Assembly (NCBI RefSeq): GCF_004698125.1
Contig: NZ_ML214298.1
Span: forward strand, 310,001 to 374,000
Length of the DNA stretch: 64,000 nucleotides
Direction: 5' to 3'
Origin: Halosimplex halophilum
Lineage (GTDB): Archaea; Halobacteriota; Halobacteria; Halobacteriales; Haloarculaceae
The notes beneath the pieces were generated by a model that searched no databases, was not told where the DNA came from, and was given only the letters and a program-made list of their open reading frames with translations. This document shows, one piece after another, positions 1,813 through 38,362 of this stretch (positions within the stretch are counted from its first letter, which is position 1; each line of letters opens with the position of its first letter). A program made the translations under genes and the position numbers.

Positions 1813-4800
1813 CTATTTTGAGACTTCCTCGAGCAGCGACTGTGCGTCCGAGACGGTGAACACGTCGGTCATGCCCGGCGCGTCGATCTTGTAATCGCTT
1901 GTCGGCGTCGTGTGGCTGTAGGTGCGGTCGATCCGGGGGTCGCCGTCGCTGGGGTCGTGCAGCGCCTCCATGATATCGACGGCGTCGGACTGGCTAGTGA
2001 CGACCCACAGCGCATCGTCGGGGTCGCAGGCAGCCATCTTGTCGAAATCGGTGACGGCGGCCTCGGCGACATCGTGGTTGACGCGCTCGGCTTCGATCGT
2101 CAGCACGATATCGCCCTCGCTATCGAGGCCGACGACGTCCAGGCGATGACCATCGTCGCGTTCGTAATAGGATTCGACGGTGTCGACTGCCGAGTCCGGA
2201 TCCTGGCGATAGGTGTGGGCGATGTCTTCGGCGAAGGCGACGAGCATGACGTGATGGGACGACTCACCCAGATCGCCCTTGCCGGCCCCGTGGTCGATCC
2301 CTTCGCGGTTGTGCTCGCCGATTACCGCCCGTCCCTCGGCGCTGACGCTGTAGAGTAAGTGGGGGTGGGTCGTATCCTTGCGGAGAATGTCGGCATCGAT
2401 GAGGTCGACCATCGCCGAGGCGTCGAGGCCGGCGTACTCTCGCAGGCGGATCATCGAATCACGCTGCAGGTCGTATTCGAGGTCGTGTGTGCGACGTTGC
2501 TGAGCGTCCCACACTGCCTGGACGAACAGCAGCTCTTCGACCGACCATTCAGACTCGGCGATCTCTGCTGCGGAGCGCTTGAGCGAGGGTGAACAGACGG
2601 GGATGTCGTCGCGGTCGACCTCCTCAAGTGAGTGACAGCACTCGATCGCCGCTTGCACGCCGTCGATATCGGGGTCGTATCGGGTCGTACAGGTCGTACA
2701 CTCGATGGCGTGGCGCTCGGCGTCGTAGTCGAGACAGTCGGGCAGCCGTGCGGTGTAGGGCAACAGCGAATCCGTCCGCCCAGCGGGTTCTGTCTGGGTT
2801 GGTTCGTGTGGTTCATCCGCTCGGTGCTCCCCATCGGGTTCCGGGTCGCTGTGGGCATCTCCGGGCTGGGTCTTGTCGGTCCGACCGGAATCGACGTGTG
2901 TCAGTGACGACACCGACAGGCCGTGCTGGTTTCGCGTCGTGTCGACCATGAGCGTTCGCGCGGCTCGATACGCCGATTTCGTGGCGCCATCGAGTGGCTG
3001 CTCGCCCGCGGGGTGGCCGGGAAGCGCGGGGAGTGATTTGGCGAGGAACGGCCGCGGAATCGGCTGGCCGAAGCCCGCTCCCGGCCGGACGAGCCACTCA
3101 CCGCTTGGCATACTCGCGAGTCGGGCTTCGATATCGGCCTGCGAGCGTTCGGCGGTCGTGAAGACGCTGGCGAGGTCGTCGTCGACGCGGACCTGGCCGG
3201 CGACGACGGTCGCGATCTCGTTGAGCGCTTCGAGATACGTATCGTCCTCCGGGTCGGGCGAATCCAGCTGTTTGGGATACTGGACGCCCAGACACATCGC
3301 GAGGCCGAACGACCGCCCCTCCGAGAGGAACGTATCGACGAGACTCGAATCGGCGACCCCGCCTGCCTCGTCCACGTAGCAGTTGACCAGTGGCGACTCC
3401 TCGATCCGCTCGTCTTCTTCGCGTGCCTTGAGCGCACTCCAGAGATCGGAGAAGAGGACGAGCGTCAACGCCCGCTTGACGCGCTCGTCCATCCCACCGA
3501 AGTCGAAGATGACCACCTGGTCGTCATCGACGATATCGGTGAACGAAAACCGGGGCGCACTCTCTTGGCCCTGCGTGGGTTCGCCGTCCCTGCTCGGGTC
3601 CGCCCCCTCGTCAGTCTGGGCGCCCTGCGTGCCTTCAGACGGAGACGGGCCAGCGGATGGGGAATGGCTCTCGTGTGCCGCCCCATCGCCAGCAGGCGCG
3701 CCTGTGGGTGCTGTCGATGGATTGCTCGCGCCATCGTCGTTACGAGTGCGGTCTGTGGTCGGGGACTGTCCCGTGGTGTGGTTAAACAGCGGTGCGAGCC
3801 GGCCGTCCGTGGCGATGGTCTCGATACGCCCGAGTGCGCCGCCGACGATGCGCGTGAAGACATCGCGGTCGCGCTCGACCAGGCCGTTGAACGACCGCGT
3901 GAGCCCCTCGGTCGTCGTCGCCGGCGGTTCCTCGTGTGTCTGGATCCGTTCGAGCCGTTCGTGGAGGTCCTTGTGGGAGTAGCTGTCCGCGCCGTGGATC
4001 GGGTCGAAGAGCGCACGGACCATGTTTGAGATGAGCTTTGTCGATTCCTGGGCCTGGTTGTAGCGTTCGCTGCCCATGAGCCCTTCGAGGATCTCGGCGT
4101 AGTGGCCGGCCTTGCGCGAGCGGGCTTCCTCGCGGGGAATGCCCGCCTCGAGCAGGGGTCGGATGTCGAAAAACGAGAGTGCTGGGAGGACCTGCGTGAG
4201 GTCGAAATACTGGACGTTCTCGAGAGTGCCGTGGGTCGCGTAGTGGGCGCGAAGGTAGTCCTCGGCCGCGCCGGCTTTGTGATAGAAGTGGAGATCGGGG
4301 CCGTCGGTGGCACCGTGATTCGTGAGCGCGGCCGTCTGCATCGCGACGGTCTTCCCGCTGCCGGTCCCGCCGATGATGAACTGGTGGGTGGGCTGGACGT
4401 CCGGCGGGAGATAGATCGGATCGCCCGATGGCTGGCGGTCGTTCGTCAGCGGCATCCCCAGTGCCATGCCCGGTGGTCGATACTGCAAGAGGATGCTCGG
4501 TGACGGGAGCGCCAGCGCCGTCTGTTCGGCTGGCCGCGTCGCGAGTGCGCGCTCGCCCTGGACGGTTAATCCTGCGCCGTCGAGGAGGCACACCGCCGGG
4601 AGTTCTTCGGGTGTGAGGACGATGCCGCGACTCGAATTCGAGCGCCAGGGGAGGCGCGAGCTGGTGGCTTCGTAGGCGGGATCATGGATCATCCGCTCAC
4701 AGAGGTCCTCGTAGACTTGCGTCCCGGCGTCGTCTGTCTGCAGCCAGCCGTTGGCTTCGTCAGTGTGGACGCGGCCGGTCACTTCGTGATCAGGCCCGCT

Positions 4801-5949
4801 GGCTGGGCTGAGGGCGCTCGCCAGACGGCGGGCGACGCGGTCGGCCTGGTCAGGGGTGTGGCGAGTGAGTGCAACTGCCCGTGCCGAGACGGTCATCGTC
4901 TGGTGGCAATTGCGCTCTTTGATGTCGTCGATACGTGCCTGGTCTGCGGGCGGTGGGACGTACTCCGAGGGATCGTCGCCGAGTTCCGGCACGAGTTCTC
5001 GCAGGAGCATATCGGCGATGTTGCCGTTCCCGTGTTCGAGGTCGTAGATGTATTCCTCGGCGGCGTCGCGGGCGCTCCCATTGAATCGACAGACCGCCTG
5101 GTAGACGACCGGCACCTCTGCATCGCTCATCGCCTCCAGCACGCCCGTGAGTGTGGTCTGGGTGGCCCCGTCGTCGCGTGACTGTGTCCCGCGACGTGTG
5201 TTCGGGCGGTCGCGTCGGCCGTTCGTTCGTGAGGTGGATGAGATTGGTGCTGAGAGCGGCGTCAGCCAGTCCTGTCGGTAGGTCGCCGTGGCCTCGTATT
5301 CGACGCCGGCGACGTACGGGTGGGTGAGATAGTCCGGGTCGACCGGTGGTGCCTGCCGGTCGGCGTCGTTTCGTTGGGTGAGGGTTTCGGAAGGCGTGGT
5401 CGATGTCTCGGATGGGGACGGGTCTCCGCCTGTGGGTTCGTCGTCGGCGGTCGTTTCCGCTTGGACGGGTAAGTGATCCTCGACGAAGCGTGGGTGGTAG
5501 GACACTTCGTTCAGTTCGTAGGTTCGTGGCAGTGCCGTCCGCAGCACTTCGACGAGCGTCTCGCGGAGTTCTTCGTGTGTCGTGCCGACGAGATAGCGGA
5601 CTGTGGGGTCGGCTCGGCCATCGGAGACGACGAGCCATTCGACCAGCGGCGTCTGTGTCGAGCCGGTGAGGCGGTGGCGAAGCCCGGTTTTGGTCGCTCG
5701 GTCGAGTGCAGCATACAGCCGGTTCATCGCCCGCGAGACGTTGCGGTGTTGGAGCGAGTCGGTCGTCGGGCGAATCTCGATATACGTCCGCGGCTCGGGC
5801 GGGTCGCGCGGTTCGGGGAGTTCTTCGGTGTCGATATCGAGTGCGACGGGTAGGTCTGTCTCTGGGTTGTTTTCGGAGTTCGGTTCGAGATCGAGCGGAG
5901 AATAAGTTGGTGTTGAATTAGTTTCGGGTGCGTCCCGGTCAGATGCCAT
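1813..5949 (-). CDS. HerA/VirB4-superfamily DNA-transfer ATPase with C-terminal winged-helix and nuclease-like region
   Basis: A 1,378-residue protein with ATG at 5949. Residues 1-500 are a poorly conserved, disordered, acidic front (many D, E, S, P, T). A P-loop GGTGSGKT lies near residue 530, Walker B VVIFDFGG near 810, and NCYVDEAGG near 857, the order found in FtsK/HerA/VirB4/TraD ATPases that pump DNA or drive conjugation. After a linker rich in charged residues comes a Cys pair (CTTC), a winged-helix-like part (about 1150-1230) and a tail with RLDVVGLDSEGDIVLTIEAE that resembles a PD-(D/E)XK beta-hairpin core. Such ATPases are common on haloarchaeal plasmids and integrated elements. The ATPase call is firm; conjugation and nuclease activity are inference. 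No relaxase or pilus gene lies beside it. Confidence 0.85.
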   Translation of the reverse strand: MASDRDAPETNSTPTYSPLDLEPNSENNPETDLPVALDIDTEELPEPRDPPEPRTYIEIRPTTDSLQHRNVSRAMNRLYAALDRATKTGLRHRLTGSTQTPLVEWLVVSDGRADPTVRYLVGTTHEELRETLVEVLRTALPRTYELNEVSYHPRFVEDHLPVQAETTADDEPTGGDPSPSETSTTPSETLTQRNDADRQAPPVDPDYLTHPYVAGVEYEATATYRQDWLTPLSAPISSTSRTNGRRDRPNTRRGTQSRDDGATQTTLTGVLEAMSDAEVPVVYQAVCRFNGSARDAAEEYIYDLEHGNGNIADMLLRELVPELGDDPSEYVPPPADQARIDDIKERNCHQTMTVSARAVALTRHTPDQADRVARRLASALSPASGPDHEVTGRVHTDEANGWLQTDDAGTQVYEDLCERMIHDPAYEATSSRLPWRSNSSRGIVLTPEELPAVCLLDGAGLTVQGERALATRPAEQTALALPSPSILLQYRPPGMALGMPLTNDRQPSGDPIYLPPDVQPTHQFIIGGTGSGKTVAMQTAALTNHGATDGPDLHFYHKAGAAEDYLRAHYATHGTLENVQYFDLTQVLPALSFFDIRPLLEAGIPREEARSRKAGHYAEILEGLMGSERYNQAQESTKLISNMVRALFDPIHGADSYSHKDLHERLERIQTHEEPPATTTEGLTRSFNGLVERDRDVFTRIVGGALGRIETIATDGRLAPLFNHTTGQSPTTDRTRNDDGASNPSTAPTGAPAGDGAAHESHSPSAGPSPSEGTQGAQTDEGADPSRDGEPTQGQESAPRFSFTDIVDDDQVVIFDFGGMDERVKRALTLVLFSDLWSALKAREEDERIEESPLVNCYVDEAGGVADSSLVDTFLSEGRSFGLAMCLGVQYPKQLDSPDPEDDTYLEALNEIATVVAGQVRVDDDLASVFTTAERSQADIEARLASMPSGEWLVRPGAGFGQPIPRPFLAKSLPALPGHPAGEQPLDGATKSAYRAARTLMVDTTRNQHGLSVSSLTHVDSGRTDKTQPGDAHSDPEPDGEHRADEPHEPTQTEPAGRTDSLLPYTARLPDCLDYDAERHAIECTTCTTRYDPDIDGVQAAIECCHSLEEVDRDDIPVCSPSLKRSAAEIAESEWSVEELLFVQAVWDAQQRRTHDLEYDLQRDSMIRLREYAGLDASAMVDLIDADILRKDTTHPHLLYSVSAEGRAVIGEHNREGIDHGAGKGDLGESSHHVMLVAFAEDIAHTYRQDPDSAVDTVESYYERDDGHRLDVVGLDSEGDIVLTIEAERVNHDVAEAAVTDFDKMAACDPDDALWVVTSQSDAVDIMEALHDPSDGDPRIDRTYSHTTPTSDYKIDAPGMTDVFTVSDAQSLLEEVSK

Positions 5950-6304: not shown

Positions 6305-7216
6305 TCAAAACCACAGGTCAGAGTACTCAACGTCGTGGACTGCTGCCCAGACGTATCCAGTCAGTAGCCCCACTGGGATGCTCACAACCGCGACTCGGAT
6401 ATCAGAGGCCAGGCCAATCACGAGACCGACCCACATCGGGACCAGGGTGGCGACTTTCGCTTGGGTTCGTAACGGGTTGGAATCAGCGTCTCCGGCGTTC
6501 GCGGTGAGATCTTTCAGGCCGCCACCACCGGACTGCATTTCCGCAGACTCGTCTATCGTGTACTCACCTGCATCTCCGTTGGTGCCAACACGGTCGCCTT
6601 GGTGCGTTTTCGGCTCATCCCGGCAGCCATGCTGGAACGGCTTTCGACAGTCAGTGCAGTAGTCCTCGCCACAGGCGGCGCACGTGGCAGTAACAACATC
6701 AGAAGCGCCACAGGCCGAACACGTTCCAGACAGTTCCTCTTCGATAGCTTTGATAGATTCGTCGGCTTGTGACTGGTGTTTCGTTCGGCCCTTCGAAGTC
6801 CCTGAGGAGGATTCTGAGCTAATCTCGATCTCAGCGTCCTCAATCAGCGATATCAGATCCGCTCTATCGATCAGATCTACTCCGAGCTCTTCTGCAAGAT
6901 CGATGGCGGGTGCGGTAAACGAGGAGGTGGTGACGAGTATGACCCGATCGGCACCTTCATTTTGATGTTTGAGCGCTGAATACTGCTGTATTTGACTGCT
7001 CCCGACCGTATTCCCTCCAGAGTAGTACTTTGCCTGAATCAGTATCGTCTCCGTGACCGGGATGTCCTTCTTTGCAATTACATCGACGCCTCTGTCGTGC
7101 GACCCCTGGGTAACCTCCGTCTCGTACCCCAGTTGCTGCCAGATCTCAGCAACGAGGTATTCAAACCCGTCACTGCTGATCGTATCGAGATACGAGTCGA
7201 TCCGCTCCCGACCCAT
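6305..7216 (-). CDS. Mrr-like restriction endonuclease with zinc ribbon and C-terminal membrane segments
   Basis: About 303 residues from ATG 7216; an upstream GTG at 7258 is also open. That longer start lies beside AT-rich TATA-like DNA, and family members begin close to the nuclease domain, so 7216 is preferred. The N-terminal half has FEYLVAEIWQQLGY, GVDVIAKK and ILIQAKYY, the D...QxK pattern of Mrr_cat (PD-(D/E)XK) type IV restriction enzymes, which cut modified foreign DNA. Then follow four CxxC pairs (CSACGA, CAACGE, CTDC and a C..H group), a zinc ribbon, and one or two hydrophobic segments at the C-terminus (VAVVSIPVGLLTGYVWAAV). A membrane-attached Mrr nuclease could guard the envelope against incoming DNA; that location is inferred. 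Confidence 0.8.
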   Translation of the reverse strand: MGRERIDSYLDTISSDGFEYLVAEIWQQLGYETEVTQGSHDRGVDVIAKKDIPVTETILIQAKYYSGGNTVGSSQIQQYSALKHQNEGADRVILVTTSSFTAPAIDLAEELGVDLIDRADLISLIEDAEIEISSESSSGTSKGRTKHQSQADESIKAIEEELSGTCSACGASDVVTATCAACGEDYCTDCRKPFQHGCRDEPKTHQGDRVGTNGDAGEYTIDESAEMQSGGGGLKDLTANAGDADSNPLRTQAKVATLVPMWVGLVIGLASDIRVAVVSIPVGLLTGYVWAAVHDVEYSDLWF

Positions 7217-14909: not shown

Positions 14910-14929
14910 CCCCGTTTGCGATATGAAAT
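14910..14929 (-). repeat. ORB-like box A (inverted)
   Basis: Read on the minus strand it is ATTTCATATCGCAAACGGGG, followed by further Gs. It is the only copy on this strand and lies left of the AT-rich stretch, with its G-run pointing away from it. Confidence 0.6.
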
Positions 14930-15034
14930 CGCGAATGAGGAGAGGGACAGGTGGCCAGAATAGTGGCCATCGCTGCCACCAACCACCTGATCTCCACCAA
15001 ACGGGTACTATACTGGCTCTGTACAATCTGTTCT

Positions 15035-15130
15035 GAAACCAGTGGTATTTATATATGAATAGTTAAAATTAGTCCGTAATACAGTAGCTATCATTGAGTT
15101 TGAAAAGGTATGTATTCTGATTAATCCGCG
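15035..15130. other. AT-rich stretch, candidate duplex-unwinding element
   Basis: A clearly AT-rich block in a GC-rich neighbourhood, including TATTTATATATGAATAG and GTTAAAATTAG. It sits between the inverted box A and the four direct boxes B-E, as the unwinding element does in haloarchaeal origins. Confidence 0.5.
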
Positions 15131-15238
15131 GCCGGGACGATGTCATTTCGACGGGAATCTATCGCAGATTCACTGTAACCTTCGTGCTTCTCTGTTGTGA
15201 CCAAAGCGAGATCCTGAACGGCCTTGCTCTTGCAGCTG

Positions 15239-15258
15239 ATTTCATCTTGCATGCGGGG
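15239..15258 (+). repeat. ORB-like box B
   Basis: ATTTCATCTTGCATGCGGGG, followed by GG. Two bases differ from the consensus ATTTCATnTCGCAnACGGGG. Confidence 0.55.
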
Positions 15259-15278
15259 GGTCCGCACAACCAGCGCTA

Positions 15279-15298
15279 ATTTCATTTCGCAAACGGGG
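15279..15298 (+). repeat. ORB-like box C
   Basis: ATTTCATTTCGCAAACGGGG, followed by GG. It matches the consensus exactly and differs from box A at a single base. Confidence 0.6.
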
Positions 15299-15380
15299 GG
15301 TTCTGGCTGATTCGGGGATTGATTGGCGTCTCCTGAATCGTTCAATTTGTTTGTCTGGGTGAGGTACTGGCTGGCTCGGT

Positions 15381-15400
15381 AATTCATCTCGCAGACGGGG
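15381..15400 (+). repeat. ORB-like box D
   Basis: AATTCATCTCGCAGACGGGG. One base differs from the consensus. Confidence 0.55.
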
Positions 15401-15620
15401 AGTCTCAAGTGGCAGTCTGTATGATAGAGGCCAATACTACCCAGAATTGGGTCCGATTGGCGATGCTACGGCACGTTGATCGGGAGGGGTCAAGCACACT
15501 GACGGTCAGCGAAGGAAAAGGACGCCCGCATATCTCTCGGACCGCACACCAGAGTCGCCTCGCTGAACGGTCGATGTCGCGATAGGTTCACGTGGCTTCC
15601 GTACTGAACCTCAAGACCGA

Positions 15621-15640
15621 ATTTCACTTTGCACACGGGG
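15621..15640 (+). repeat. ORB-like box E
   Basis: ATTTCACTTTGCACACGGGG. Two bases differ from the consensus; this copy lies 220 bp further out. Confidence 0.5.
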
Positions 15641-16017
15641 TGTGTCCGAGAACCATCCCCACTCGAAATCAGCTGCCAGAATTGTGAATTTGCTTGGGAG
15701 ACACACCACCGTCGCGAATGTATTCGCGTGTGGTATGGAATTATTTATATTTTGTTCATCTGTTACCTCTACAGACCCTTACATCCGCGACAGTGGTGTG
15801 TGTCTCTGTGGGCCAGGGCGTTCGATTCGCTGTTCTGGAATGGCTGTCTCCGCTGTGTCTCTCCAACCGTTCTAAAGTGGCCGACCGGATGTTGCTGGTT
15901 CAGAGAGGGGCGTTGTTGCTCGCGCGGCGGCTCATCGGGGCTGAGTGGGCCCACCGCAACCGAGGCACGTTCCGGAAACCGTAGCTCTATACCGACTGCT
16001 CCACCCTTTCGGATATC

Positions 16018-21445: not shown

Positions 21446-23278
21446 TCAATCTTGAGTGATCTCTGTTCGTTCCTGTGTGAAGTCCTGGAACGTCTCTACG
21501 ACGCGCTCTCGAATCAGTTGATCTCGGGCATCCAAGAACTGCAAGAAGTTCTCGATCTGGTACAGTGAATCATTCTGGGGGATGCAATGACGGTCTCGGT
21601 AATCGTCGGTCCGCGTCCGGATCCATTCTTCGAATGGGAGTTCTTGTTTTCGCGCGTTCTCCTCATCAGTCAATAACTGCAGATTCGCTACACGGTCACA
21701 GGCGTCTTCTAACTGTTCCGCCTGGGGGCGAGGGAATTCATGTTCCTTGACCAACTCCTCGGCGTCAAGCCGATTTTGCGGGAAAATATGATCTTGCTGG
21801 TACTCGACACCCTCTCTGACCGCGTCACCGAAATGCAGCAGTGACAACAACAGGAACGACTTCTTGGACCTGTATGTCGTTTCTTCCAATAGCGTGTCAA
21901 GGACCTCCGCGCTGAACCCAACGACTTTTCCGCGGCCACGCATTCGACTGTGAATCTCTTCTAACGGGTACCCGCTGTCGGCCTCATCGATTGCGGTCCG
22001 CGCATCGTCCAAGACTTCGTCCGGCCGTGAATTGAATGTCCCATTCAGCAACGCTGAGGTCAACCAGTAATGAATCCGTTTCCGCGTCTCCAACCCGTCC
22101 TGTGACGTCCAATCCAGCGACGGGTTATGCCGGTAAATGTAGTACGAAATCGGGATCAACGCATTGTGACTGGTGAGGCTGCGATTGTCGATGCCGAACT
22201 CAACGATCAGGTCGATCGCTCGCTCAATTGAGTCTTGGAAGGTCCCGTTTTCCCACACGGTCTGCATCCGATCGAGATTCTCATTCGAAAAATTCCCAAT
22301 GCGGTACTGCGGGATGGATTCCGTCCCGTACATCAACAACGCCTTCAGAATGAAGTCAATCCCGAATTTGAAGTTTTTATCCGGATGTCGTCGATTCAGA
22401 TTGTCAACGAACGATGTAATCTGCTCGCGCGCATCTACTGAATCCTCCCCTTCACCCCACCGTGCTGTCGCCATCGACAATAGAATCTCAGACTTACTCA
22501 ACGGCGTCCCACCGTCGTTCATCCGGATGAAAATATCCAGTACCCGCTCCCGATCAGTCGTATTCTCTTCATGATACTGGATCAGATCGTCATTATGCAC
22601 CGCATCGAACAGCTTCTTCAATGTCGTCCCAGCAGACCATCGCTGTTCATCCGGTACATCCAATTCCGACGCGATATCCATCACATCATCCGACTGGTCG
22701 ATGTTCAGGACCTCACCGACACGATACCAGTACGTCCCTTCCGAATTCGATGGGTCCGGCTCCCGGAACGAAAACTCGTACTGCAGCCCGAGCTCATCAT
22801 CAACTGTCTCATCGTCACCCGACAACAAATTCAGATACAGCCGCTTCTGATTCCACGCATCTGCGTTCTTTCGCTGTGCATATTTCTGCTTCTCCGTGAA
22901 CGTCCCCTTCAACCCGATATAAAACGCCGTCAACCGTTGCTGCCCGTCCAAAATAAGATCCTGCTCACTCGGCAAATCAATCTCATCTTCCTCCCGTATC
23001 TTTTTATTGTGATACCGCATCTGCTCAAACTCTGGCTCATCCGGGTGGACACTATCCTCAATATAATGTTGTATGAATTGATATTTCATCTCATCCTGTG
23101 CCGCCTCCCCATTCAAATGCCAGACTAAGAACGCCCCAATCGGGTATTCCTGCATCAACGAATCAAACAGCCGAATAATCTGATCCGCATCCCAAACAAA
23201 CTCCCGCTGAATCGCAGGCAACAAAATCGAGCGATTCACCCGATCAACAGCCTGCGCAATACTCCACGATTGCGGCAT
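21446..23278 (-). CDS. DUF262/ParB-like and HNH-type protein (GmrSD-like)
   Basis: 610 residues from ATG 23278 (MPQSWSIAQAV); the frame is open for 53 more codons but these are cysteine- and aromatic-rich and unlike the family. The N-terminal DUF262 domain shows LLPAIQREFVWDADQI, LFDSLMQEYPIGAFLVW, and ILDGQQRLTAFY, the DGQQR nucleotide-binding motif. FIRMNDGGTPLSKSEIL closes that domain. The C-terminal part has DHIFPQ and a following NLQLL, an HNH/DUF1524 nuclease core. This is the architecture of GmrSD-type IV restriction enzymes, which attack modified DNA. It lies behind the cytosine methylase and DISARM genes on the same strand. Codon use is more AT-rich than the neighbours. Confidence 0.82.
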   Translation of the reverse strand: MPQSWSIAQAVDRVNRSILLPAIQREFVWDADQIIRLFDSLMQEYPIGAFLVWHLNGEAAQDEMKYQFIQHYIEDSVHPDEPEFEQMRYHNKKIREEDEIDLPSEQDLILDGQQRLTAFYIGLKGTFTEKQKYAQRKNADAWNQKRLYLNLLSGDDETVDDELGLQYEFSFREPDPSNSEGTYWYRVGEVLNIDQSDDVMDIASELDVPDEQRWSAGTTLKKLFDAVHNDDLIQYHEENTTDRERVLDIFIRMNDGGTPLSKSEILLSMATARWGEGEDSVDAREQITSFVDNLNRRHPDKNFKFGIDFILKALLMYGTESIPQYRIGNFSNENLDRMQTVWENGTFQDSIERAIDLIVEFGIDNRSLTSHNALIPISYYIYRHNPSLDWTSQDGLETRKRIHYWLTSALLNGTFNSRPDEVLDDARTAIDEADSGYPLEEIHSRMRGRGKVVGFSAEVLDTLLEETTYRSKKSFLLLSLLHFGDAVREGVEYQQDHIFPQNRLDAEELVKEHEFPRPQAEQLEDACDRVANLQLLTDEENARKQELPFEEWIRTRTDDYRDRHCIPQNDSLYQIENFLQFLDARDQLIRERVVETFQDFTQERTEITQD

Positions 23279-23822: not shown

Positions 23823-25199
23823 TCAATCAGTAACGTGTTTACCTGAAAGAATTGTCTCCCGAACCGCAACACCGACTGCCTCCCCCAGCCGAGGCGGCAC
23901 TGCATTTCCAATCAAGCGATATGCGCTTGTACGGCTCTCTGGGAACCAGTATGTGTCTTTGAATGACTGCAGACGAGCCGCTTCTCGAGGAGAGAGCGAT
24001 CGTGCCTCTGTCGGGTGGATGAACATGTGCCCATCCTTCTGGATGTGTGCGAGAATCGTTGACGCTGGTTCTGCAGGATTCTGCTTCTTGTACTTATCGG
24101 GAAACACGTCGTCGCGGTATGGTTGGAGTCGAGTACTTACCTGACCGATGTTCCACCCGACGCCGTGACCAAGCAGCTTGTATATGGAGAGGTCAAGGTG
24201 ATTGTGCCAGCGTGCGTCATGGTTACGGAGTGTCTGCTCTTCCCAGTCCTCGCCATCTGAGAGATTTCGGGCCCATTCCTGATACGGGGAGACGGGAGGA
24301 AGCGTGTACTCAGTCGCCTGGCTCGGTGGCATCTCCCCATCAGGGGAGATCGGCGGCAAGTCCATAATCGCGTCTGCAACGGTGAGATAGGGATGCCTGT
24401 ATTCTCGGTTGGGCTCTAAGGAAGGAAAGACAGCGGACGATCCAGTTTTGAGCGTCTCCTGGGATTCATCACTGTCGTCCCTCAGTTCAGGACGAATCTG
24501 CATCCGCTGGTCTTTCTCTCGGTCGGTCGGCTCTCGATGGGTGAACCACTGGGTGAGTTCCGGTAGAGTCTCTCCAGTTCGCCGGCCGATGAAGAAGAGC
24601 CGTTCTCGATGCTGTGGAACGCCAAAGTCCGCTGCGTCAACGAGAAACCAGTCTGTAGTATAATCCAGCCCCTCCATTTCTTCAAGGATGACATCTGTGA
24701 CAGGGACATCCTCACCAACCGGCGACTGCTCGACCTCCTGTTCTGTCTCCGTCGGAAGAGATTCTTGGACTGTATCCGACTCGACAGTGACTGTATCAGT
24801 CAGCATCCCGGGAACGTTCTCCATAACGAACGCCTGTGGCTGGAAATACCTGACGTACCGAAGGAAATCGAGATACAGAACGTTTCGATCGTCTTCGTCA
24901 ACGGAGCGATCTTCAAGAGAGCCTAGCTTTGAACGACCAATCGTGGAGAACGATGGACAGGGTGGGCCACCCGCCACGAGGTCAAGGTCGCCCGGGTCGA
25001 TATCGGGTCCATCTTCGGCAGGGTCCGTATCACGAATATCCGCCCGAATGGCGTGGTCATCGTGGTTCTCGCGGTAGGTTTCAACTGCTGACTCGTCATA
25101 ATCGATTGCCCAGCGTACGTCATAGCCGGCCCGTCGGAGCCCTTCAGTAAGCCCCCCAGCGCCACAGAAGAGATCGATCGCAGATGGTCCCGAATCCAT
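23823..25199 (-). CDS. DNA (cytosine-5) methyltransferase
   Basis: 458 residues from ATG 25199. Motif I AIDLFCGAGGLTEGL opens the protein, motif IV GGPPCPSFS carries the catalytic cysteine, ENVPG is motif VI, HRERLFFIG motif VIII, and RLIGNAVPP motif X near the C-terminus. It transfers methyl from SAM to C5 of cytosine in a specific site. The stop is 23 bp upstream of a gene-poor strip with the esterase remnant. It directly follows drmD on the same strand (47 bp gap), so it probably protects host DNA against the DISARM system, the role of DrmMII in class 2 DISARM; here it occurs together with DrmMI. The target site cannot be told from sequence. Confidence 0.93.
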   Translation of the reverse strand: MDSGPSAIDLFCGAGGLTEGLRRAGYDVRWAIDYDESAVETYRENHDDHAIRADIRDTDPAEDGPDIDPGDLDLVAGGPPCPSFSTIGRSKLGSLEDRSVDEDDRNVLYLDFLRYVRYFQPQAFVMENVPGMLTDTVTVESDTVQESLPTETEQEVEQSPVGEDVPVTDVILEEMEGLDYTTDWFLVDAADFGVPQHRERLFFIGRRTGETLPELTQWFTHREPTDREKDQRMQIRPELRDDSDESQETLKTGSSAVFPSLEPNREYRHPYLTVADAIMDLPPISPDGEMPPSQATEYTLPPVSPYQEWARNLSDGEDWEEQTLRNHDARWHNHLDLSIYKLLGHGVGWNIGQVSTRLQPYRDDVFPDKYKKQNPAEPASTILAHIQKDGHMFIHPTEARSLSPREAARLQSFKDTYWFPESRTSAYRLIGNAVPPRLGEAVGVAVRETILSGKHVTD

Positions 25200-25246
25200 T
25201 GTGCGAACGGATGGGTGGGAATGATGAAAGTCGTTCGGAACCGTGA

Positions 25247-28189
25247 TCAGTTCTTAAAGGCGTCGATGACAACGGCCATATTCACGAGGTCGGGTTCATC
25301 GGGAACGACCTGTTCTTCCCCGTCAAGCCGGGCCATCTCTGCATTTTTCTGCTCTCGTAATTCGGCAAGCTCACTGCGGTGTTTCGCGAGTACTGCGCTC
25401 ATATCTTCGCCCGCACGGTCACGCTCTTCGAACTGCTCGATTCGTTCTTCGAGGTCTTCCATCCGGTACTCGAAATAGTTCTTGGCGTGCTCTCGGCGAA
25501 TACGGACCTCCCGCTCTCGGTCTGCGCGTGCTTCTTGGGCAAGGTCGTCAATGAGTTTCCATGCCACGTCGTCTGCTTTCGAGACGAGTTCTTCAGCTTG
25601 CGCGGTTACAGCGCCAATCGAGGGATACTCGTCGATCGCTGACGGGGGCAGCCCACCCGTGATGTGGATGTTCTCGGTTTGAGTCGTACCATCAGGAGTG
25701 ACGTAGACTTGCGCGAGTTTTTCAGTCACTGTATCACCTGATCCCGAGAGATAGCCAATCCGGTAGTGGCAGAGAAGTCCCGGTGTCTTCAGTTCCGCCC
25801 CTCCAGTGAGAACAGCTGTCTGTCCACCAACAGCGTCTGTGTCCAGACAGTACGCCATCATTGCCTGGACAGCTGGGTGGTCAAGTGTGATGAATTCGAG
25901 AGTCTCGTCTGCAAGCGCGTTTTCCCGGTCGAAGGTTGCACCGTCATATCGCCTCGCGACATCCTCACTGGTAACCGGGTCAGGAACGACCAGATCAAAC
26001 ACGTCAGCACCGTCTTCGGCGGGACCAGGACGAACGTTTTCGAGGCCACCACCGAACTCCTGACAGACTGTTCTGACGAGATATTCGATGTCTTCGTCGC
26101 TGACCGTATCAGTAGCGCTCTCCTCGACGATGTCGAGGATATCTCTGTCTTCCTCACTCAGGTCAAATTTATCCCGGATGAGGAGTTCTTCGTCGACGCG
26201 ACGGACAGCCTCTTCCTGGTCCTCGACGATGGCCTCAAGGTCGTCGACCACGGCATCTGGACTCTGGCCGGTCGCGAGTGCGGACATGATCTGCTCCTCC
26301 AGGTCGACGTCTTCGAGTACGAGCCCAAGGACATCCGAGCTCATCCCAAGCGTTTCCTCGATCTCGTCGATCTTCTCGAGGAGTCGCTCGAGGATGATGC
26401 TCTCCCGGGTGTCCTTGAAGAACAGGTTTCGAATCTCGACAGTCTCCTCCTGTCCGTAGCGGTGGAGACGTCCAATACGCTGGTCGATCCGTGTCGGGTT
26501 CCAGGGCAGGTCGTAGTTCACCATGATGTGGGCGAACTGGAGGTTCAGTCCCTCCCGGGCGGCGTCTGTTGCCAGCATCACATTGGCGGGGCCTTCGAAC
26601 TTCTTGAACTGTTGTTGGCGCTGCGACTGGGAGAGGTCGCCATAAATTTCCGCGATATCCCTGTCTCCGAACACTCGCCCCTTGAGGTACTCGAGTGTGT
26701 CTGTATATTCGGTAAAGATGAGGATTTTCTCGTCCGGATCCTCTTCCAGAATCCCATTGACGTACTCTCGCAGCCGTTCTGCCTTCGAGTCCACTGGGAT
26801 GGCCTTCGCTTGGTTGTAGAGGTCACGGACTATCGAGAGCTCTTCTTCGATCCTGTCCGGATCATTAGAGACTACGGCACCACCAAGCTCCTCTTCGACG
26901 TGCTCGCGCTGTGCCTCCGTGAGCATCTCGGGGTCCTCTCGGTACTCGTCGAGCAGGCTCTTCGTAACTGGAGAGAGGTCGCCCGGGTCGGCACCGCCTG
27001 CCTTGATCGACTCCATCCGGTTCCGGAGGGATTGCTGAATCGCGTAGATCGAGGAGACGAGGCGTTTCTGGTAGAGGACCATGGCGAACCCCGCAGCATC
27101 GTTCTCTTCCCGGCTGGCGAGGTTGTAGTGCTCGGTAATGTACTCCGTGATGTCGTCGTAAAGCTGCCGTTCCTCCTCCGTGAACTCGACTGGGAGCGTC
27201 TGAATGTTCTTCTCGGGGAACATCGGCGACCCGTCCGCCTCGTACATCTCGTCCTTCAGTCGACGGATCATCAGGTCTCGCAGTCCTTCTTTGTCGACAT
27301 CGTGCTCGTCGCGGAACCGATAGGGGTCGAGTAGCGAGATCATGAAGTAGAACTGGTCGCGCTTCCCGTTGTGCGGAGTTCCGGTGAGGAACAGCAACCC
27401 ATCAGAGGTTTCAGAAACCGCCTCTCCGACCCGGTATCGGTCAGTTTTATCGATGCCGCGCTTTCCCTCACGGCGTGCGGTGAGATGGTGGGATTCGTCG
27501 AAGAGTGCGATGTCCCAGTCGTCCTGGACGTTCTTCAGGGCGGAGAGCATGTCCTCCTGCTTGGCGAAGTCGATGGAGGTGATGATTCGGTCTTCGTGCG
27601 ACCAGACATTCTCGGCAGGGTAGGCGTCCTTCTTGGCCTCGACGTAATCGCGGTCGTAGATGACATAGTTCGTGTCGAACTTCTCGCGGAGTTCTTCCTG
27701 CCACTGGGTGGTAAGCGGCGCCGGGGCGACGATGAGCACACGGTCGGCCTGCCCCCGGGCGGCAAGTTCCTCGATGACGATCGCTGCCTCGATCGTCTTC
27801 CCCAGCCCCACCTCGTCGCCGATGAGGTAGCGATGGTCGTAAGAGGTGAGAATCTCGTGTGCAGCCTTCACCTGGTGGGGGGCGATGTCGATGCGGTTGT
27901 TCTCCAGCGCGACGAATCGGTCCTGGCGATGGGCGAGATCGAGTTCGGCTGCCCGGGCACGAAGGTGGAACCGCTCAGGCTCATCGAACTCACCCTTCTC
28001 AAGCAGCGCGTCGCTGCTGTCTATCAGGTCAACAACTGCAGCAGGAAGCTTCTTCGAGTTATCGTCATCAGTCAAGATGTGGAGCAGACACTGACCCGAT
28101 GGACGATGATTGGCCTTGACGAGTTCGCCTTCACCGCCCGCGAAGCTGACGCGGTCCCCGATATCGAAGCCGCATGCGCAACCAGACAC
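25247..28189 (-). CDS. drmD: DrmD-like SNF2-family helicase (DISARM)
   Basis: 980 residues from GTG 28189. After an SH3-like front (GDRVSFAGGEGELVKANH) comes a SNF2/SF2 motor: GDEVGLGKTIEAA near residue 130, APAPLTTQWQEEL, LFDESHHLTAR with the DESH box near 230, LTGTPHNG, and in the C-lobe IFTEYTDTLEYL, TDAAREGLNLQFA, QRIGRLHRYGQ near 578. A long helical tail (DREREVRIRREHAKNYFE) follows. SNF2-type helicases of this length define class 1 DISARM as DrmD. It lies on the same strand as the cytosine methylase behind it and drmMI ahead of it, though three other genes separate it from drmMI. RapA-like helicases share the architecture, so the name depends on context. Confidence 0.82.
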   Translation of the reverse strand: MSGCACGFDIGDRVSFAGGEGELVKANHRPSGQCLLHILTDDDNSKKLPAAVVDLIDSSDALLEKGEFDEPERFHLRARAAELDLAHRQDRFVALENNRIDIAPHQVKAAHEILTSYDHRYLIGDEVGLGKTIEAAIVIEELAARGQADRVLIVAPAPLTTQWQEELREKFDTNYVIYDRDYVEAKKDAYPAENVWSHEDRIITSIDFAKQEDMLSALKNVQDDWDIALFDESHHLTARREGKRGIDKTDRYRVGEAVSETSDGLLFLTGTPHNGKRDQFYFMISLLDPYRFRDEHDVDKEGLRDLMIRRLKDEMYEADGSPMFPEKNIQTLPVEFTEEERQLYDDITEYITEHYNLASREENDAAGFAMVLYQKRLVSSIYAIQQSLRNRMESIKAGGADPGDLSPVTKSLLDEYREDPEMLTEAQREHVEEELGGAVVSNDPDRIEEELSIVRDLYNQAKAIPVDSKAERLREYVNGILEEDPDEKILIFTEYTDTLEYLKGRVFGDRDIAEIYGDLSQSQRQQQFKKFEGPANVMLATDAAREGLNLQFAHIMVNYDLPWNPTRIDQRIGRLHRYGQEETVEIRNLFFKDTRESIILERLLEKIDEIEETLGMSSDVLGLVLEDVDLEEQIMSALATGQSPDAVVDDLEAIVEDQEEAVRRVDEELLIRDKFDLSEEDRDILDIVEESATDTVSDEDIEYLVRTVCQEFGGGLENVRPGPAEDGADVFDLVVPDPVTSEDVARRYDGATFDRENALADETLEFITLDHPAVQAMMAYCLDTDAVGGQTAVLTGGAELKTPGLLCHYRIGYLSGSGDTVTEKLAQVYVTPDGTTQTENIHITGGLPPSAIDEYPSIGAVTAQAEELVSKADDVAWKLIDDLAQEARADREREVRIRREHAKNYFEYRMEDLEERIEQFEERDRAGEDMSAVLAKHRSELAELREQKNAEMARLDGEEQVVPDEPDLVNMAVVIDAFKN

Positions 28190-28232
28190 TGCTACATCAA
28201 GATGTAGTGGCCCAACTTAACTTCTCGGCAAA

Positions 28233-28748
28233 CTAGTCACCGTGCTCTCGAAGAGGACTGATCTGTGTCTTTATTTCTTCAGCTTCTGACTCCGTCAATC
28301 GGTCATAGGCGTATGCATCAAGAGACCCGTCCGGCTCTGCTATGAGTAGATACTGGTTTGTGAATATGATGAAAAAGCGGTAATCGAGAGCATCGAAATA
28401 ATCGAAATACCGAGAAGAAATATCCATTGAAGTTACAGAGTTCCTCTCGTGGTTAATATCATGCCTCTCACCCATCCCCGTGCTTGCGAGGATACGGATT
28501 GATTCGGTCGTTCGTTGCCGGATCACGAAATCAGCGACAAACTGATCGAGTCCCGAAGACTTTCCTGGGTCCAGATACACTCGGTGCTCAATTCGATCCG
28601 GATCATAACCCACTTTCTCGAGAAAAGTTGTGCAACCTGATTCGAGCTTTTCTACCCCCCTCTCCGCACTTTCTAACGTATAGTCCACAGACGGCTCAAA
28701 GGCGTACTGTTCGAGAAATGCCGCGAGATTCTGGGGATCTGAACTCAT
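28233..28748 (-). CDS. Hypothetical protein upstream of drmD
   Basis: 171 residues from ATG 28748, 43 bp ahead of drmD on the same strand, so likely in one transcript. Two parts are visible: an N-terminal helical piece (LAAFLEQYAFEPSVDYTLES) and a piece with strands (HRVYLDPGK, YRFFIIFTNQYLLIAEPDGS). The pattern of a conserved SxD/GL...DFVIR followed by hydrophobic strands is compatible with a small nuclease or binding fold, but no motif is decisive. I do not recognise the family. Its tight link to drmD suggests an accessory of the defence system. Confidence 0.55.
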   Translation of the reverse strand: MSSDPQNLAAFLEQYAFEPSVDYTLESAERGVEKLESGCTTFLEKVGYDPDRIEHRVYLDPGKSSGLDQFVADFVIRQRTTESIRILASTGMGERHDINHERNSVTSMDISSRYFDYFDALDYRFFIIFTNQYLLIAEPDGSLDAYAYDRLTESEAEEIKTQISPLREHGD

Positions 28749-28888
28749 TGCCGGATATAGTACTGTCGCATATAATGTATTTATGGGTTACAGACCAGAC
28801 TTAGTGGTAATATTCGAACTGCAACTCCAAGGATCTTGACTAGCTACCAGGCAAATGTATTTCAAAGGCTGGTCATCAGAGAGATGGT

Positions 28889-29932
28889 ATGCAGCGAGCC
28901 TTCCGCGTCGGTGAGACTTATCGGGACACGGGAAGCTTCAGGAACGCGGAAGACCAGTTTCTGCGGTGGATCCGCGGTCCGCTGAGTAGCGGGATCAGAA
29001 ACACAGGCGGAATCCGTGACCTTGGTGCAAATCGCTCGGAGATACCCGCAGCCCTCTTCCTCATCTCGAACGATGCCGGAATCTCCCAGCACGACGATCC
29101 CTGGGAGGACACGCTTGCGGTCAACGCTGGTTACGTGAGCTACTGGGGCGATGCGAAAAAGGATCTCCGGTATGACGAGTCGGCACAGAATCGGAAAATC
29201 AAGGATGCGTTCGACAGGGCAGCCTCGGGACGACGTGAGGAGGTGCCTCCCGTGCTGGTGTTCCGAAAACCCGAGAGCGGTGTCGTCGAGTTCTGTGGGC
29301 TCTGTGTTCCCGACCACCTAGAGGTGCGTGCCTATCAGGACCATTCAGGAGAACAGATACCGAACTACCATTTTCACTTTTCTATCCTCAACACACAGGC
29401 GGTCCCGGTCTCGTGGCTCCACAGGCGTGCGCAGGCGAACGATGACGACCAGGCGCCCGAAGTCTGGAAGCAGTGGGTCAGGGAAGGAAAGGTCTCCCAG
29501 TGGCCGACTGGCGAACTCCTCGATACGGAAGGAGAGATTCGACGCTACGAAACGACCGAGACGACGGTGAGTGAAGCATTCCGGGAAAAGACGTTTGAAC
29601 GGTACGGGCATGCCTGCGCGATGACCGGTATTCGTGAGGGGGCGCTACTCGATCTGGCACACATCCTGCCGCGGAGCCAGCATCCCGATCTCGCAGAGCA
29701 CGCGGAGAACGTACTCGTACTGAACTCACTCCATCACCGGGCGTTCGATGCCGCGCTGTTCACAGTCGATAGTGAGTATCGGATTCGGACGAGCCCATCG
29801 TTCGAGCCTGCACATCCCTTCCTTCGCGAGACGATCGTCGAACGGGAGGGCAACCAGCTTTCGTTCCCCACTAACGCTCAGATACACCCGGAGTTCTTGG
29901 AAGAATTGAACGCTGGGTTGTCGTGGATGTAG
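28889..29932 (+). CDS. HNH endonuclease with SRA-like N-terminal domain (putative type IV restriction enzyme)
   Basis: 347 residues from ATG 28889. The C-terminal third is an HNH nuclease: CAMTGIREGALLDLAHILPR with the HNH histidine, then NVLVLNSLHHRAFDAALF. The N-terminal two thirds (WIRGPLSSGIRNTGGIRD, DPWEDTLAVNAGYVSYWGDA, PPVLVFRKPESGVVEFCGL) resemble the SRA/PUA-like modified-base readers of ScoMcrA- and AspBHI-type enzymes; this part is recognised by pattern only. Such proteins cut DNA with 5-methylcytosine or phosphorothioate. It stands on the opposite strand inside the DISARM block. A modification-dependent nuclease living beside two cytosine methylases must avoid the host's own marks, so its specificity must differ. 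Confidence 0.75.
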   Translation: MQRAFRVGETYRDTGSFRNAEDQFLRWIRGPLSSGIRNTGGIRDLGANRSEIPAALFLISNDAGISQHDDPWEDTLAVNAGYVSYWGDAKKDLRYDESAQNRKIKDAFDRAASGRREEVPPVLVFRKPESGVVEFCGLCVPDHLEVRAYQDHSGEQIPNYHFHFSILNTQAVPVSWLHRRAQANDDDQAPEVWKQWVREGKVSQWPTGELLDTEGEIRRYETTETTVSEAFREKTFERYGHACAMTGIREGALLDLAHILPRSQHPDLAEHAENVLVLNSLHHRAFDAALFTVDSEYRIRTSPSFEPAHPFLRETIVEREGNQLSFPTNAQIHPEFLEELNAGLSWM

Positions 29933-30026
29933 ATGGGTTCTGATATTTAATACCGTCTACGGCCGAAACGGTTTGAAGAAACGTTGAAAAAGTAGAGTTA
30001 ACTGGGGTGGATGTATCAGGGGACGC

Positions 30027-31064
30027 ATGATCGGAGAGCGAATCGGCTTCATTTCCAAAAAGCGGATTAACCAGCTGTTTCTCGGATCATTCGCAGCAAT
30101 TGTCCTATTGTTTCTGTTACTAGGATACGTTGCCTATGACCCAAATTCAGTAGTTGATAAACAGATCCAGGCGCTGGGCACCATAGGGGGGTTACTCCTC
30201 AGTCTACTCCTGTTAGTGGTGTATATCGATATGAGTCAGGCGCAGGACGAACAACATGAATTCCTGCAAGATCTCAATTCCCCAGACGTCTACCTCAAGG
30301 AACTGAGATATACAGGGACCGACACTCCCCGCCGACCGAAGTTCACCGTATCTCTCTCAAATCTGGGGTCGGACGCTGCGACTGACCTCGAACTGGCCAC
30401 TCGCTCGAAGTTATTAACTGGCTTTGAGAAGGAAGGAACCGAAGAAAACCCTCAAATAGTCGAAAAGGAAAGTCAGGAGTGGAAAATCGAATCTCGACCC
30501 ACCTCCCTGAGTCGGCGAGAAAGTCTTGATGATGACTCCACGCTCATCTCTCAAGGACGGTATCTTGAGGAGGGCGAAACCAACCAGGATTTCGACTTTG
30601 TCGTGGAATTCGAACCAGCAAAAAACAGCAATTTCAAACAGGATCATCCGATCGGCCGCTACCCTGCGAGTGACATTATCGAGGCAGCCGTATACGACAA
30701 ACGCGTCGGGGAAGACGAGAAGCACTACTCGGAATTCAGCAAATACCGGAGCTACGGAGAGATATTCAGAGAACGGTCACTTGGAGAGGATAGCTCGATC
30801 GGGTATACCGAAGACGAACTACGTGAGCTGGCAAGCACGCTCCCTTTCCAGTATCTGGTGACTGAATTTGAACTGACCTATGGGAAGCAGAACAGGGAAA
30901 GTATCTCTCTGGGAACGCTGATTATCCGACTGGATCCGGGGCTGTCTGAAGACGAATTATGGGGCGATGCCCTCGAGTATGAGGAATTCCTCGAAGAGCA
31001 TCACCCTGGCACCCCGGACCCCATCTATACACGGAGAAGCATGCGAGAAGAGTTCGAAGACTGA
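30027..31064 (+). CDS. Two-transmembrane protein of unknown function
   Basis: 345 residues from ATG 30027. Two hydrophobic segments at about residues 17-37 (FLGSFAAIVLLFLLLGYVA) and 47-68 (ALGTIGGLLLSLLLLVVY) form a hairpin near the N-terminus; the rest is a soluble, charged domain with beta-rich stretches (RPKFTVSLSNLGSDAATDLE) that recall immunoglobulin-like folds of defence-associated membrane proteins. It follows the HNH gene by 94 bp on the same strand and converges with drmMI. No enzymatic motif is seen. A membrane partner or effector of the neighbouring nuclease is possible but unsupported. Confidence 0.6.
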   Translation: MIGERIGFISKKRINQLFLGSFAAIVLLFLLLGYVAYDPNSVVDKQIQALGTIGGLLLSLLLLVVYIDMSQAQDEQHEFLQDLNSPDVYLKELRYTGTDTPRRPKFTVSLSNLGSDAATDLELATRSKLLTGFEKEGTEENPQIVEKESQEWKIESRPTSLSRRESLDDDSTLISQGRYLEEGETNQDFDFVVEFEPAKNSNFKQDHPIGRYPASDIIEAAVYDKRVGEDEKHYSEFSKYRSYGEIFRERSLGEDSSIGYTEDELRELASTLPFQYLVTEFELTYGKQNRESISLGTLIIRLDPGLSEDELWGDALEYEEFLEEHHPGTPDPIYTRRSMREEFED

Positions 31065-31110
31065 TCTCCACGATATGTTACGGGAATTCTCTGAGAGGGC
31101 CTGATCTGTC

Positions 31111-34100
31111 TTACTCCTCTTTAACAGCTTCCTCTACAATCTCGATCTCCTCCTCAGTCAAGTCGTAGAGGTCGTAAACGATCTCGTCGATGAGCTGATC
31201 CGTCCTCTCGATCTTCTCATCGAGTTCGTCAGCGCGTTCCTTCGTCTCGATGTAGCGCCGGAGATCGTCAGCCACGTCGTCGGGGTCGGGCAGGGTCATC
31301 GCCTTCAGACGGTCGATCAGGGAGATATTTTTCGTAGCGTTGTCATGGAAGTCGCCGATTTCTTCCTCGACGGCGACAGGGACGAATTCCTCGACGAGTG
31401 TGGCCTCCTCGTCGGCCAAGTCTGTGAGCGTGAACGCTTCGTAGAACTCCGTCTCTGTGTAGCCGTAGGTATCGGTCTCGAACTCGTCCTCGTCTTCGGG
31501 CTTGTAGCGTGCCGTCGCCTCGATAGTGACTGCTTGGCCGTCCCGCTTCGTGCGGGCGCGTTCGATCTGGAGTTTCTCGTAGTTTTCTATAGTCTCATTG
31601 AGGATATTTGAACCTGTAGGCTGGAAGAGACCGATGTCGGGGAGACTGGGGCCTCCGCAGTAGTTGCCAAGGTAGTCGAGTAGATCGAGATTGAGATTAG
31701 CCAACTCCTCTCTCAGGTCGGTTGCTTTAGATACAAGTTCCCCAAGTTCGTCGTTCCCAGATATATTGTAAGGTATTGGAACGTCTTCTACGTGTGTGGC
31801 ACGGAATTCTTGATACCCGCCCCGTAGCCCAGACAGTTCTGCTTGAATCCAAAAATGAATTAAATCCGAGTTGAGTATTCCTAAGAGAGGAAGGTTTTCT
31901 CCGGAAATTGCATACAATTTATCATTTATATAGTGGCCGTCTCGGTCATACGCAAAATTGGGCCCTTTCGATATTACAGGGTAGACTATCTTTGGCTCGG
32001 AAAACACATTATAATAATCACAGGGCCGGAGTTCCCACCAGAAATCCCCACGATCATAACGTTCTTGCGCATCGTCTCGGAATTGAATAAGATGCTCCGC
32101 TAGTTTAGGAAACTCTGATTTAAACCACTTCCACGCTTCTTCCTCGTTTTGAGCGCCGGAATGTTTTCTTGTCCACCCAGAGGGTATACGGATCAGATAT
32201 CTATTTTCATAGCTAATCTGATACCGATGCACGTCTTTCCCCCGCAACAAAGGCTTGATATGTTCTCCTTCATACCCCACTTGCTCTTTCTCTTCCTTTG
32301 ATAGAATAAATGCATCATTCAGACCGGTCAAAATTCCTCTGTACAGGGGATCCTGCAAATAATCAACCAATGGCCTGGACAGCTCCTCCAATTTAAGTAG
32401 AACTTTTCGGACTTCGTTCGACTGGAGGTTCCACGACTCCTCGTCCAGCGATGACTGGGGTATTTCGTAAGAATGGCTCTTAATCTCAGAGCGGAGAGTT
32501 GTAAAATCTAGATCTTCCAGCACTGCTATATCTATTTTCTGGCTTTCACTTGGCGTTACGCCCTCTGCCAGCATTATCAAAGGATATGCGCTCACTTCGC
32601 TTGAGAAAACTGGCAAAGAGTGGAAGTCAATTAACTTCTCGATACGGTTCTCCTTCGAAAGAATCTCTCTGATTTTCTGGCCATAGTCTGCGTGCACGAA
32701 CTTGTTTGAGACAATATATCCTAGTCTACCACCATCTCGAAGAATTAAGTGTCCGATTTCAAGAAAGTACACATAAAGATCTGCAGCGCTGTCGTAACCC
32801 TCGTACGAGAGTGAAAGGAAATCCTTGGATCTTGATAATTGTTCTTGGCGCACATACGGAGGATTCCCAATTATCGCATCGAATCCAGCATCCGCCTTCC
32901 GCTCCCCATCCTGATTGTAAAACGCCATCGGGAACTCAAGTTCCCAGTGGAAGAAGCGCTCCTCCTCAGCCATAGCCTGCGCGCTCTTGAACCAGTCTTG
33001 TTCCTTAATGTTCTCCCACGCGTCACTGTGGAGCGCTCTAGCCATCCGCTCGTCAGCGTCGTCAGGTATATCGAGCCCAAATGTGCCGGCAGTGTGGACG
33101 TTAGCCATCGCGAGGAGCTTCTGATAGAGAGGGTCGTCACGTACCTCGTCGTAGACCGCCTCCATCTCCTTTGCGTCCTCCAGAGTCTCATTGTCGATAT
33201 CGAGCAGGTCTTGGAAGCGGTCGGTGACGTGCTCCATTGCGCGCTTTCGCGTGTGGTCGAGCGACTCCTGGAGTGTTAGCTGGCCGTCCTCTGTGGTTTC
33301 GTCATCGCCGTTGGACAGCACATCCTCAATGTCGCTTCCGACCAGTGAGTTGCCTGTTTTGAGGTGGTGGTCGAGGAATGCGAGCGGTTGCTCTGCCGCG
33401 AGCGTCCGTAGCCAGAGAGAGACCTTGGCCAGCTCGGTCGCGAGCGGATTGACGTCGACACCGTAGATACAGCGCTGGGCAACCTTCCGGCGCGCCCAGT
33501 TGATGTCCCGTAGCTCCCCCTCCTCCGTCCTCGGGGAACGGACATCTTCGCCCTCGGTGTCGAGCGCCTGTCGGTCCTGGCGTTCCTGGGCGTCGATGAT
33601 CTCGCGGGCAAGATAGTCGACAGCATTGACCGGGAAATGGCCGCTTCCCATTGCCGGATCTAGTACAGTGAGGTCGAAAATTCGCTCGGCGAACTCTTCG
33701 GCGAACCCGCCCTCACGGCTGTGAGTTGTGTCCGCCCCCTGTGACATGAGATCCTGCCGGATCTCCTCCACGAGTGGCCCGAGCGTCTCGTCGACGATGT
33801 ATTCGACGACGTACTCGGGGGTGTAGTACGACCCCGTCGCCTTTCGCTCTCCGTCGTCAGTGCGGAGATAGACCTCTCCCGTCTCGACGGTAACTGTGTC
33901 GTCGTCACCAGCAGCGACGTACTCACCGTCATCAATGGCCAGGGGTTCGTCAGCGACGGACAGTTTATACTCGAGCAGCCCTTCGTAGATAGAGCCGAGA
34001 TTCCGCTCGTCTAGCGAGGAGTAGTCAACGAAGACCTTGCCATCGCCCTCCGAGGCCTCGTGTCGCGTGAGGAGTTCGATGACCTCCGCGATATAGGCGT

Positions 34101-35271: not shown

Positions 35272-35434
35272 TGATGGTTAGCGAGGCCCCGTCAGACGGG
35301 GTACGGCAGCTATACTGTACCGGGTACCTTCCACGTAATTAGTACTTTCCCACCGAATGCCGACCAGACTTGCTTCAGGCGATTCCAGAGAACAAACATC
35401 TAGCGCACTACCGGGTTCTGAAGACCGTAGCGCT

Positions 35435-36364: not shown

Positions 36365-36394
36365 CGTATGAAAGAGGGAGTGTCTTGCCGCCCG

Positions 36395-38356: not shown

Positions 38357-38362
38357 TGTTGA

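Follow-up and report, generated by a model that had tools for sequence, protein, structure and literature searches.

We report an array of five origin recognition boxes (ORBs) in the genome of Halosimplex halophilum that lacks an initiator gene, and propose that it is most probably a defunct plasmid-type replication origin that was captured, lost its initiator and is now eroding. The array lies in the 64-kb stretch of DNA that was analysed here (hereafter, the window). The initial annotation of this DNA had put forward a candidate origin without an adjacent initiator gene and offered three readings of it: an origin served by a distant initiator, a remnant of a captured plasmid, or a binding array for another protein. 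The second of these is the best supported, given the low-GC island in which the array is found and the absence of the initiator.

The pattern ATTTCATNTCGCANACGGGG, allowing up to three mismatches, occurs at exactly five sites in the window, one inverted and four direct and precisely where the initial annotation had placed them, against a mean of 0.05 sites in dinucleotide shuffles of the window, none of which reached five. A weight matrix compiled from 270 boxes of 32 intact origins retrieves the same five sites, and no others, within the window. Over the whole genome (4.47 Mb) no site outside the array comes within two mismatches of the pattern, and the box does not recur upstream of many genes as a regulatory site would; the five three-mismatch matches found elsewhere are single and scattered, near the level of a reversed-pattern control. 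The elements of the array are as follows.

14910-14929, minus strand: ORB 1, inverted, the left unwinding-flanking box; no mismatches, score 29.8, with an extended G-string (CGATTTCATATCGCAAACGGGGGGAGGG) that has six G in the 10 nt after GGGG.
15030..15125, no strand: AT-rich stretch, the presumed former DNA unwinding element; 70-77% AT in 60-bp windows, in the same relative place as in intact origins.
15239-15258, plus strand: ORB 2, direct, in the right unwinding-flanking place; two mismatches, score 25.0, degenerate and without an extended G-string.
15279-15298, plus strand: ORB 3, direct; no mismatches, score 29.8.
15381-15400, plus strand: ORB 4, direct; one mismatch, score 30.6.
15401..15620, no strand: candidate former place of orc1, with no detectable Orc1 remnant.
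15621-15640, plus strand: ORB 5, direct, the best preserved; two mismatches, score 37.6.

All five boxes score above the lowest-scoring box of the intact origins, ORB 2 falling among the lowest 8-9% of these, and they occupy an intergenic region that lies upstream of a hydrolase gene and downstream of two others, a TFB gene and a SWIM zinc-finger gene. The AT content between the inverted and the first direct box peaks at 77% over 60 bp near 15047-15106, compared with a window mean of 42%, and the G-runs of the boxes point outward, which bears out the architecture described in the initial annotation. ORB 1 and ORB 2 are 330 bp apart, within the 250-425 bp range of the family described below, in which most spacings fall between 333 and 348 bp with a mode of about 345 bp.

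A scan of one genome per species located the box in 90 stretches, mostly haloarchaeal, with the remainder being single bacterial matches, and 53 of these stretches contain at least three boxes. A common plan is shared by nearly all of the latter and by about 50 haloarchaeal loci: an inverted box is followed by roughly 345 bp that include an AT-rich stretch, then by direct boxes, an orc1/cdc6 gene encoding 448 aa and further direct boxes; intact copies are present in the sister genomes of Halosimplex aquaticum (G005) and H. salinum (G004). Orc1 proteins with 80-95% identity to that of this family are plasmid-encoded in many genera. Since the same box and plan flank orc1 in dozens of genomes, and this Orc1 is so often plasmid-borne, the five boxes of the window are, judged by sequence and layout, ORBs of a plasmid-type haloarchaeal orc1/cdc6 origin family (TTTCAT-box, 448-aa Orc1), and their initial identification as haloarchaeal origin recognition boxes holds. 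No relative of the array DNA was found in the plasmid collection searched, and no exact box in the viral contigs searched. A single-copy palindrome-like site, CGTCTTTCACTTCGCAGACGGGGTGT, which is conserved on many haloarchaeal replicons (L261, L264, L265, L266, L268-L271, L275), is probably an operator and not an origin box.

The initiator that should accompany such boxes is missing. No orc1/cdc6 gene lies in the window, in agreement with the initial annotation, and neither tblastn with 12 family Orc1 proteins nor hmmsearch with a profile of the 27-protein clade defined below detects a remnant of one there. Searching the whole genome with the family Orc1 gave matches of at most 36-39% identity where these were of substantial length, and a single 94-aa fragment at 45%; matches to this Orc1 with an E-value of 1e-100 or better occur in 84 of 195 related genomes, and the H. 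halophilum genome is not one of them. In a tree of 40 Orc1 proteins, the 27 that use TTTCAT-, TTACA- or similar boxes form a single clade (support 100/100), outside which fall all seven full-length Orc1/Cdc6 proteins of H. halophilum, their winged-helix (DNA-binding) parts being only 20-28% identical to those of the matching clade. Clear boxes accompany three of the seven, each set different and unrelated to those of the array: ACTAACTCGGAATCAGGTGTG on contig C1 (oriC1 type), TTTCCGGTGAAACGGGGG on C4 and GTTCCA..GAAAC.AAGGGGTGGGGG on C2. Obvious boxes are lacking for the Orc1 proteins at C2:469 kb and C4:211 kb and for a further two on C1. Within the matching clade, each sub-clade possesses its own box variant (e.g. 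TTACACATCGATGACGGGG, TTACAACTCGACAACGGGG), which agrees with published linkage specificity (PMC3528665).

Two other features of the host initiators were observed. Contig C3 contains, at 428.6 kb, an Orc1 gene fragment fused to an unrelated 37-aa start (L206, G000:C3:424000-434000, about 4563-4967). This fragment was considered as an initiator of the matching clade and rejected, being nearest to oriC1-type Orc1; it is a second dead initiator in the H. halophilum genome, and a 95% match to its 37-aa start is found some 0.9 kb from a solitary ORB-like box in the sister genome G002. On the 268-kb contig C4, the presence of Orc1 genes of equal score near both ends (L209, G000:C4:20000-32000, and G000:C4:266651-267811) suggests that C4 is a circular replicon with an assembly overlap.

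The boxes themselves show deviations that are unevenly distributed. All 64 unwinding-flanking boxes of intact origins have at least five G in the 10 nt after GGGG. In the window the left box has six and ORB 2 has three, with 2-4 in the four right-hand boxes, so that the extended G-string, an element that is essential at H. hispanica oriC1 (PMC3936714), is present on the left unwinding-flanking box only and not on both. The four right-hand boxes retain GGGG and most of the core. Core position 13, the second N of ATTTCATNTCGCANACGGGG, is C in 96% of intact-origin boxes and reads A, T, A, G and C in the five boxes of the window, so that the near-invariant C has been lost from four of them. Four of the eight deviations in the array fall on this position (p about 0.004) and the remainder of each box is well kept; the consensus given in the initial annotation matches all five sites and yet hides this strong deviation. 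The clustering counts against the reading as an eroding origin: it points to a specificity that is relaxed or altered more than to uniform decay, and is not obviously the product of pure neutral decay; it might be due to a sub-clade of Orc1, as yet unsampled, that prefers another base. No intact array with this position-13 variant was found among 392 genomes of the order. Single matches of the form TTTCACTTCGCAGACGGGG in many megaplasmids were considered as the missing variant box and rejected, because they are single copies without an array.

By analogy with related origins in the literature, at an intact origin of this family the cognate Orc1 would occupy the boxes that flank the AT-rich stretch, melt the stretch and load MCM, and boxes near orc1 may also titrate Orc1. 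Because the cognate Orc1 is absent, and because the extended G-string is missing from the right unwinding-flanking box and a near-invariant base from four of the five boxes, we infer that the array in the window would not fire. Of the original proposal of a replication origin, box identity and layout thus stand, whereas the origin itself, with its initiator absent genome-wide and its right-hand G-string missing, is most likely dead.

The array resides in a low-GC island that spans about C2:304-393 kb and has mostly 50-67% GC, compared with 70-73% for the chromosome. We infer C2 to be part of the main chromosome, as C1, C2 and C3 add up to 4.18 Mb, compared with 4.16 Mb for the single-contig sister genome G002. 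GC skew along C2 presents no origin-like change at 325 kb, where the array lies, but none at the C2 Orc1 sites either, so that it is uninformative on this contig. Near the array in the window, a DISARM-like cluster occupies 23823-42178 and encodes DrmA, DrmB, DrmC, DrmMI-like and DrmMII-like methylases and a BrxHII/DrmD-like helicase, and proteins matching the PADLOC candidate-defence models HEC-05 and HEC-06/Orf5 are encoded at 21446-23275 and 56993-58831. At the same locus of G002, identity is 89-90% for the flanking TFB gene and hydrolase, and 92% between the segment 15537-15723, which includes ORB 5, and G002:C1:2534980-2535169. Only the ORB 5 orthologue has been kept there; ORB 1 to ORB 4 and the SWIM gene have given way to inserted genes, one of which reads like a transposon-associated gene. 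A 50-kb spacing of box matches in both G002 and G003 was set aside as coincidence, the two regions not being syntenic.

Downstream of ORB 5, at 15698-15804, an inverted repeat with 24-bp arms (GAGACACACCACCGTCGCGAATGT and an imperfect reverse of it) surrounds an AT-rich 60 bp. In G002 the GAGACACACCACCGTCGCGAATGT arms are about 1.7 kb apart and enclose a winged-helix-like gene and an apparent nucleotidyltransferase gene, on which basis the repeat may be an excision scar or a module boundary.

These observations fit a history in which an origin of a mostly megaplasmid-borne family would have entered the Halosimplex chromosome within acquired low-GC DNA, and its initiator gene, which the relatives suggest once adjoined the array, would have been lost after acquisition. 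Chromosomal variable regions are known to gain origins that are then destroyed (PMC4441112).

A different reading, which we consider unlikely, is that of a working or dormant origin fired in trans by another host Orc1/Cdc6 or by the initiator of a plasmid that is transient or was missed in the assembly. A cdc6 gene can act in trans on its own origin in H. hispanica (PMC3936714), the four host Orc1 at C2:469 kb, C4:211 kb and on C1 have no known target boxes, and the boxes of the array retain most core positions. The assembly comprises 7 contigs, with a completeness of 99.87%, and may have missed a small plasmid that carries the initiator; this possibility counts against reading the origin as dead. 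Against service in trans stand the placement of all seven host Orc1 outside the matching clade, with their low winged-helix identity to it, the absence of the right-hand extended G-string and the loss of four of the five boxes in G002; the distant initiator of the initial annotation is likewise disfavoured by the different boxes of the three host Orc1 whose boxes are clear. In H. hispanica, three origins lost autonomous replication without their own cdc6 despite the presence of other cdc6 genes (PMC3936714).

Loss of the initiator from an array of this family has a second instance. A near-perfect array without an adjacent orc1 is found on the Salinibaculum litoreum plasmid CP046867.1 (G020:C2, L228, 316 kb) and on its homologue G148:C3 (L229), two homologous 316-kb replicons that belong to different families. 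In neither genome is there an Orc1 of the matching subfamily; the nearest is about 55% identical and, on the G020 replicon, is associated with different boxes of its own. The left spacings of this array (110 and 84) correspond to those upstream of orc1 in intact loci (e.g. L106) and its right spacings (43, 40 and 44) to those downstream of orc1 (e.g. L082). Given this correspondence, its orc1 appears to have been deleted by recombination between two direct boxes, and by analogy the same route may have removed orc1 from the window locus. Both arrays combine inverted and direct family boxes, and for both there is no adjacent orc1 and the genome lacks an Orc1 of the matching subfamily. They differ in that the 316-kb replicon array has near-perfect boxes, a G-string on both unwinding-flanking boxes and spacings that fit an orc1 deletion, whereas the window array is eroded and its spacing bears no trace of a deletion event. 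Partial arrays without an adjacent orc1 also occur in G066, G113 and G163. Orc1 is absent from 4 of the 53 multi-box stretches, in three of which the boxes sit at the stretch ends and the gene may be just outside. Initiator loss is therefore recurrent, yet rare among multi-box loci. Beside the L228 orphan array (G020:C2:96000-109000, about 6920-7100) another repeat with a G-string (ACGACGGAAACGTGGGG) is present in more than one copy and may represent an origin of a different type.

The array could instead serve as a decoy that sequesters the Orc1 of incoming plasmids of the family, lowering their copy number or excluding them, and thus act as a chromosomal incompatibility element; we regard this as decidedly unlikely. 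There is precedent in the H. hispanica chromosomal ORB cluster oriC2D, which lowers the replication of a plasmid with a matching origin (PMC3936714), and the complete initiator-less array on the two 316-kb replicons indicates that orphan arrays can persist. The right-hand boxes without a G-string resemble the non-unwinding boxes of intact loci, and the array is set within a defence-rich island. The near-invariant C missing from four boxes should, however, weaken binding to the common Orc1, and the array has been lost in G002. Of comparably slight probability is a broader conjecture in two forms: that initiator-less ORB arrays, in the window and on the 316-kb replicons, are kept as Orc1-soaking decoys and so constitute passive plasmid exclusion in haloarchaeal islands, or that the CAAACG/CAGACG variant is the signature of an Orc1 sub-clade not yet sampled, which comes in on transient plasmids and fires the chromosomal site in trans. 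Least probable is an operator array of an unrelated DNA-binding protein that merely resembles origin boxes, for although the boxes are intergenic, downstream of the TFB and SWIM zinc-finger genes and upstream of the hydrolase gene, the identical box and inverted/direct plan surround orc1 in dozens of genomes and the box stands at no other gene of H. halophilum, making a binding array for another protein an improbable source.

The published surveys of haloarchaeal origins drawn on here start from orc1/cdc6 genes (PMC3528665), and initiator-less arrays are consequently invisible to them. The arrays of the window and of the 316-kb replicons establish that there are orphan arrays and that a search for the box is enough to find them, and the latter suggests a simple route of loss, through recombination between the direct boxes that flank orc1. 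Orphan arrays trace past plasmid capture in chromosomes and offer a natural way to ask whether boxes without an initiator do nothing or work as decoys for one.

Read as a captured and eroding origin, the window array can be set against several known systems. Plasmid-type origins with the box TTTCATNTCGCACACGGGGTGTG, such as those on the Halosimplex aquaticum chromosome (NZ_CP118158.1) and the Halorarius halobius plasmid NZ_CP101165.1, share with it the box core, the arrangement of one inverted and several direct boxes, an AT-rich gap of about 330-350 bp and outward G-runs; compared with them, the window array has no orc1, has fewer boxes, has mostly lost the position-13 C and is without the right extended G-string. 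The oriC2D cluster of Haloarcula hispanica (PMC3936714) is likewise an array of ORBs that has no origin activity itself, as is presumed of the window array, but it adjoins a living initiator gene, cdc6E, whose product it titrates. A parallel in history is that of the disrupted or non-functional Haloarcula variable-region origins oriC3-cdc6D, oriC4-cdc6G and oriC5-cdc6H (PMC4441112), which were also acquired in a variable region and then broken; in the cases discussed there the cdc6 gene or part of it mostly persists, whereas in the window the initiator is wholly gone. The array is, in this sense, a new example of an already known kind of event.
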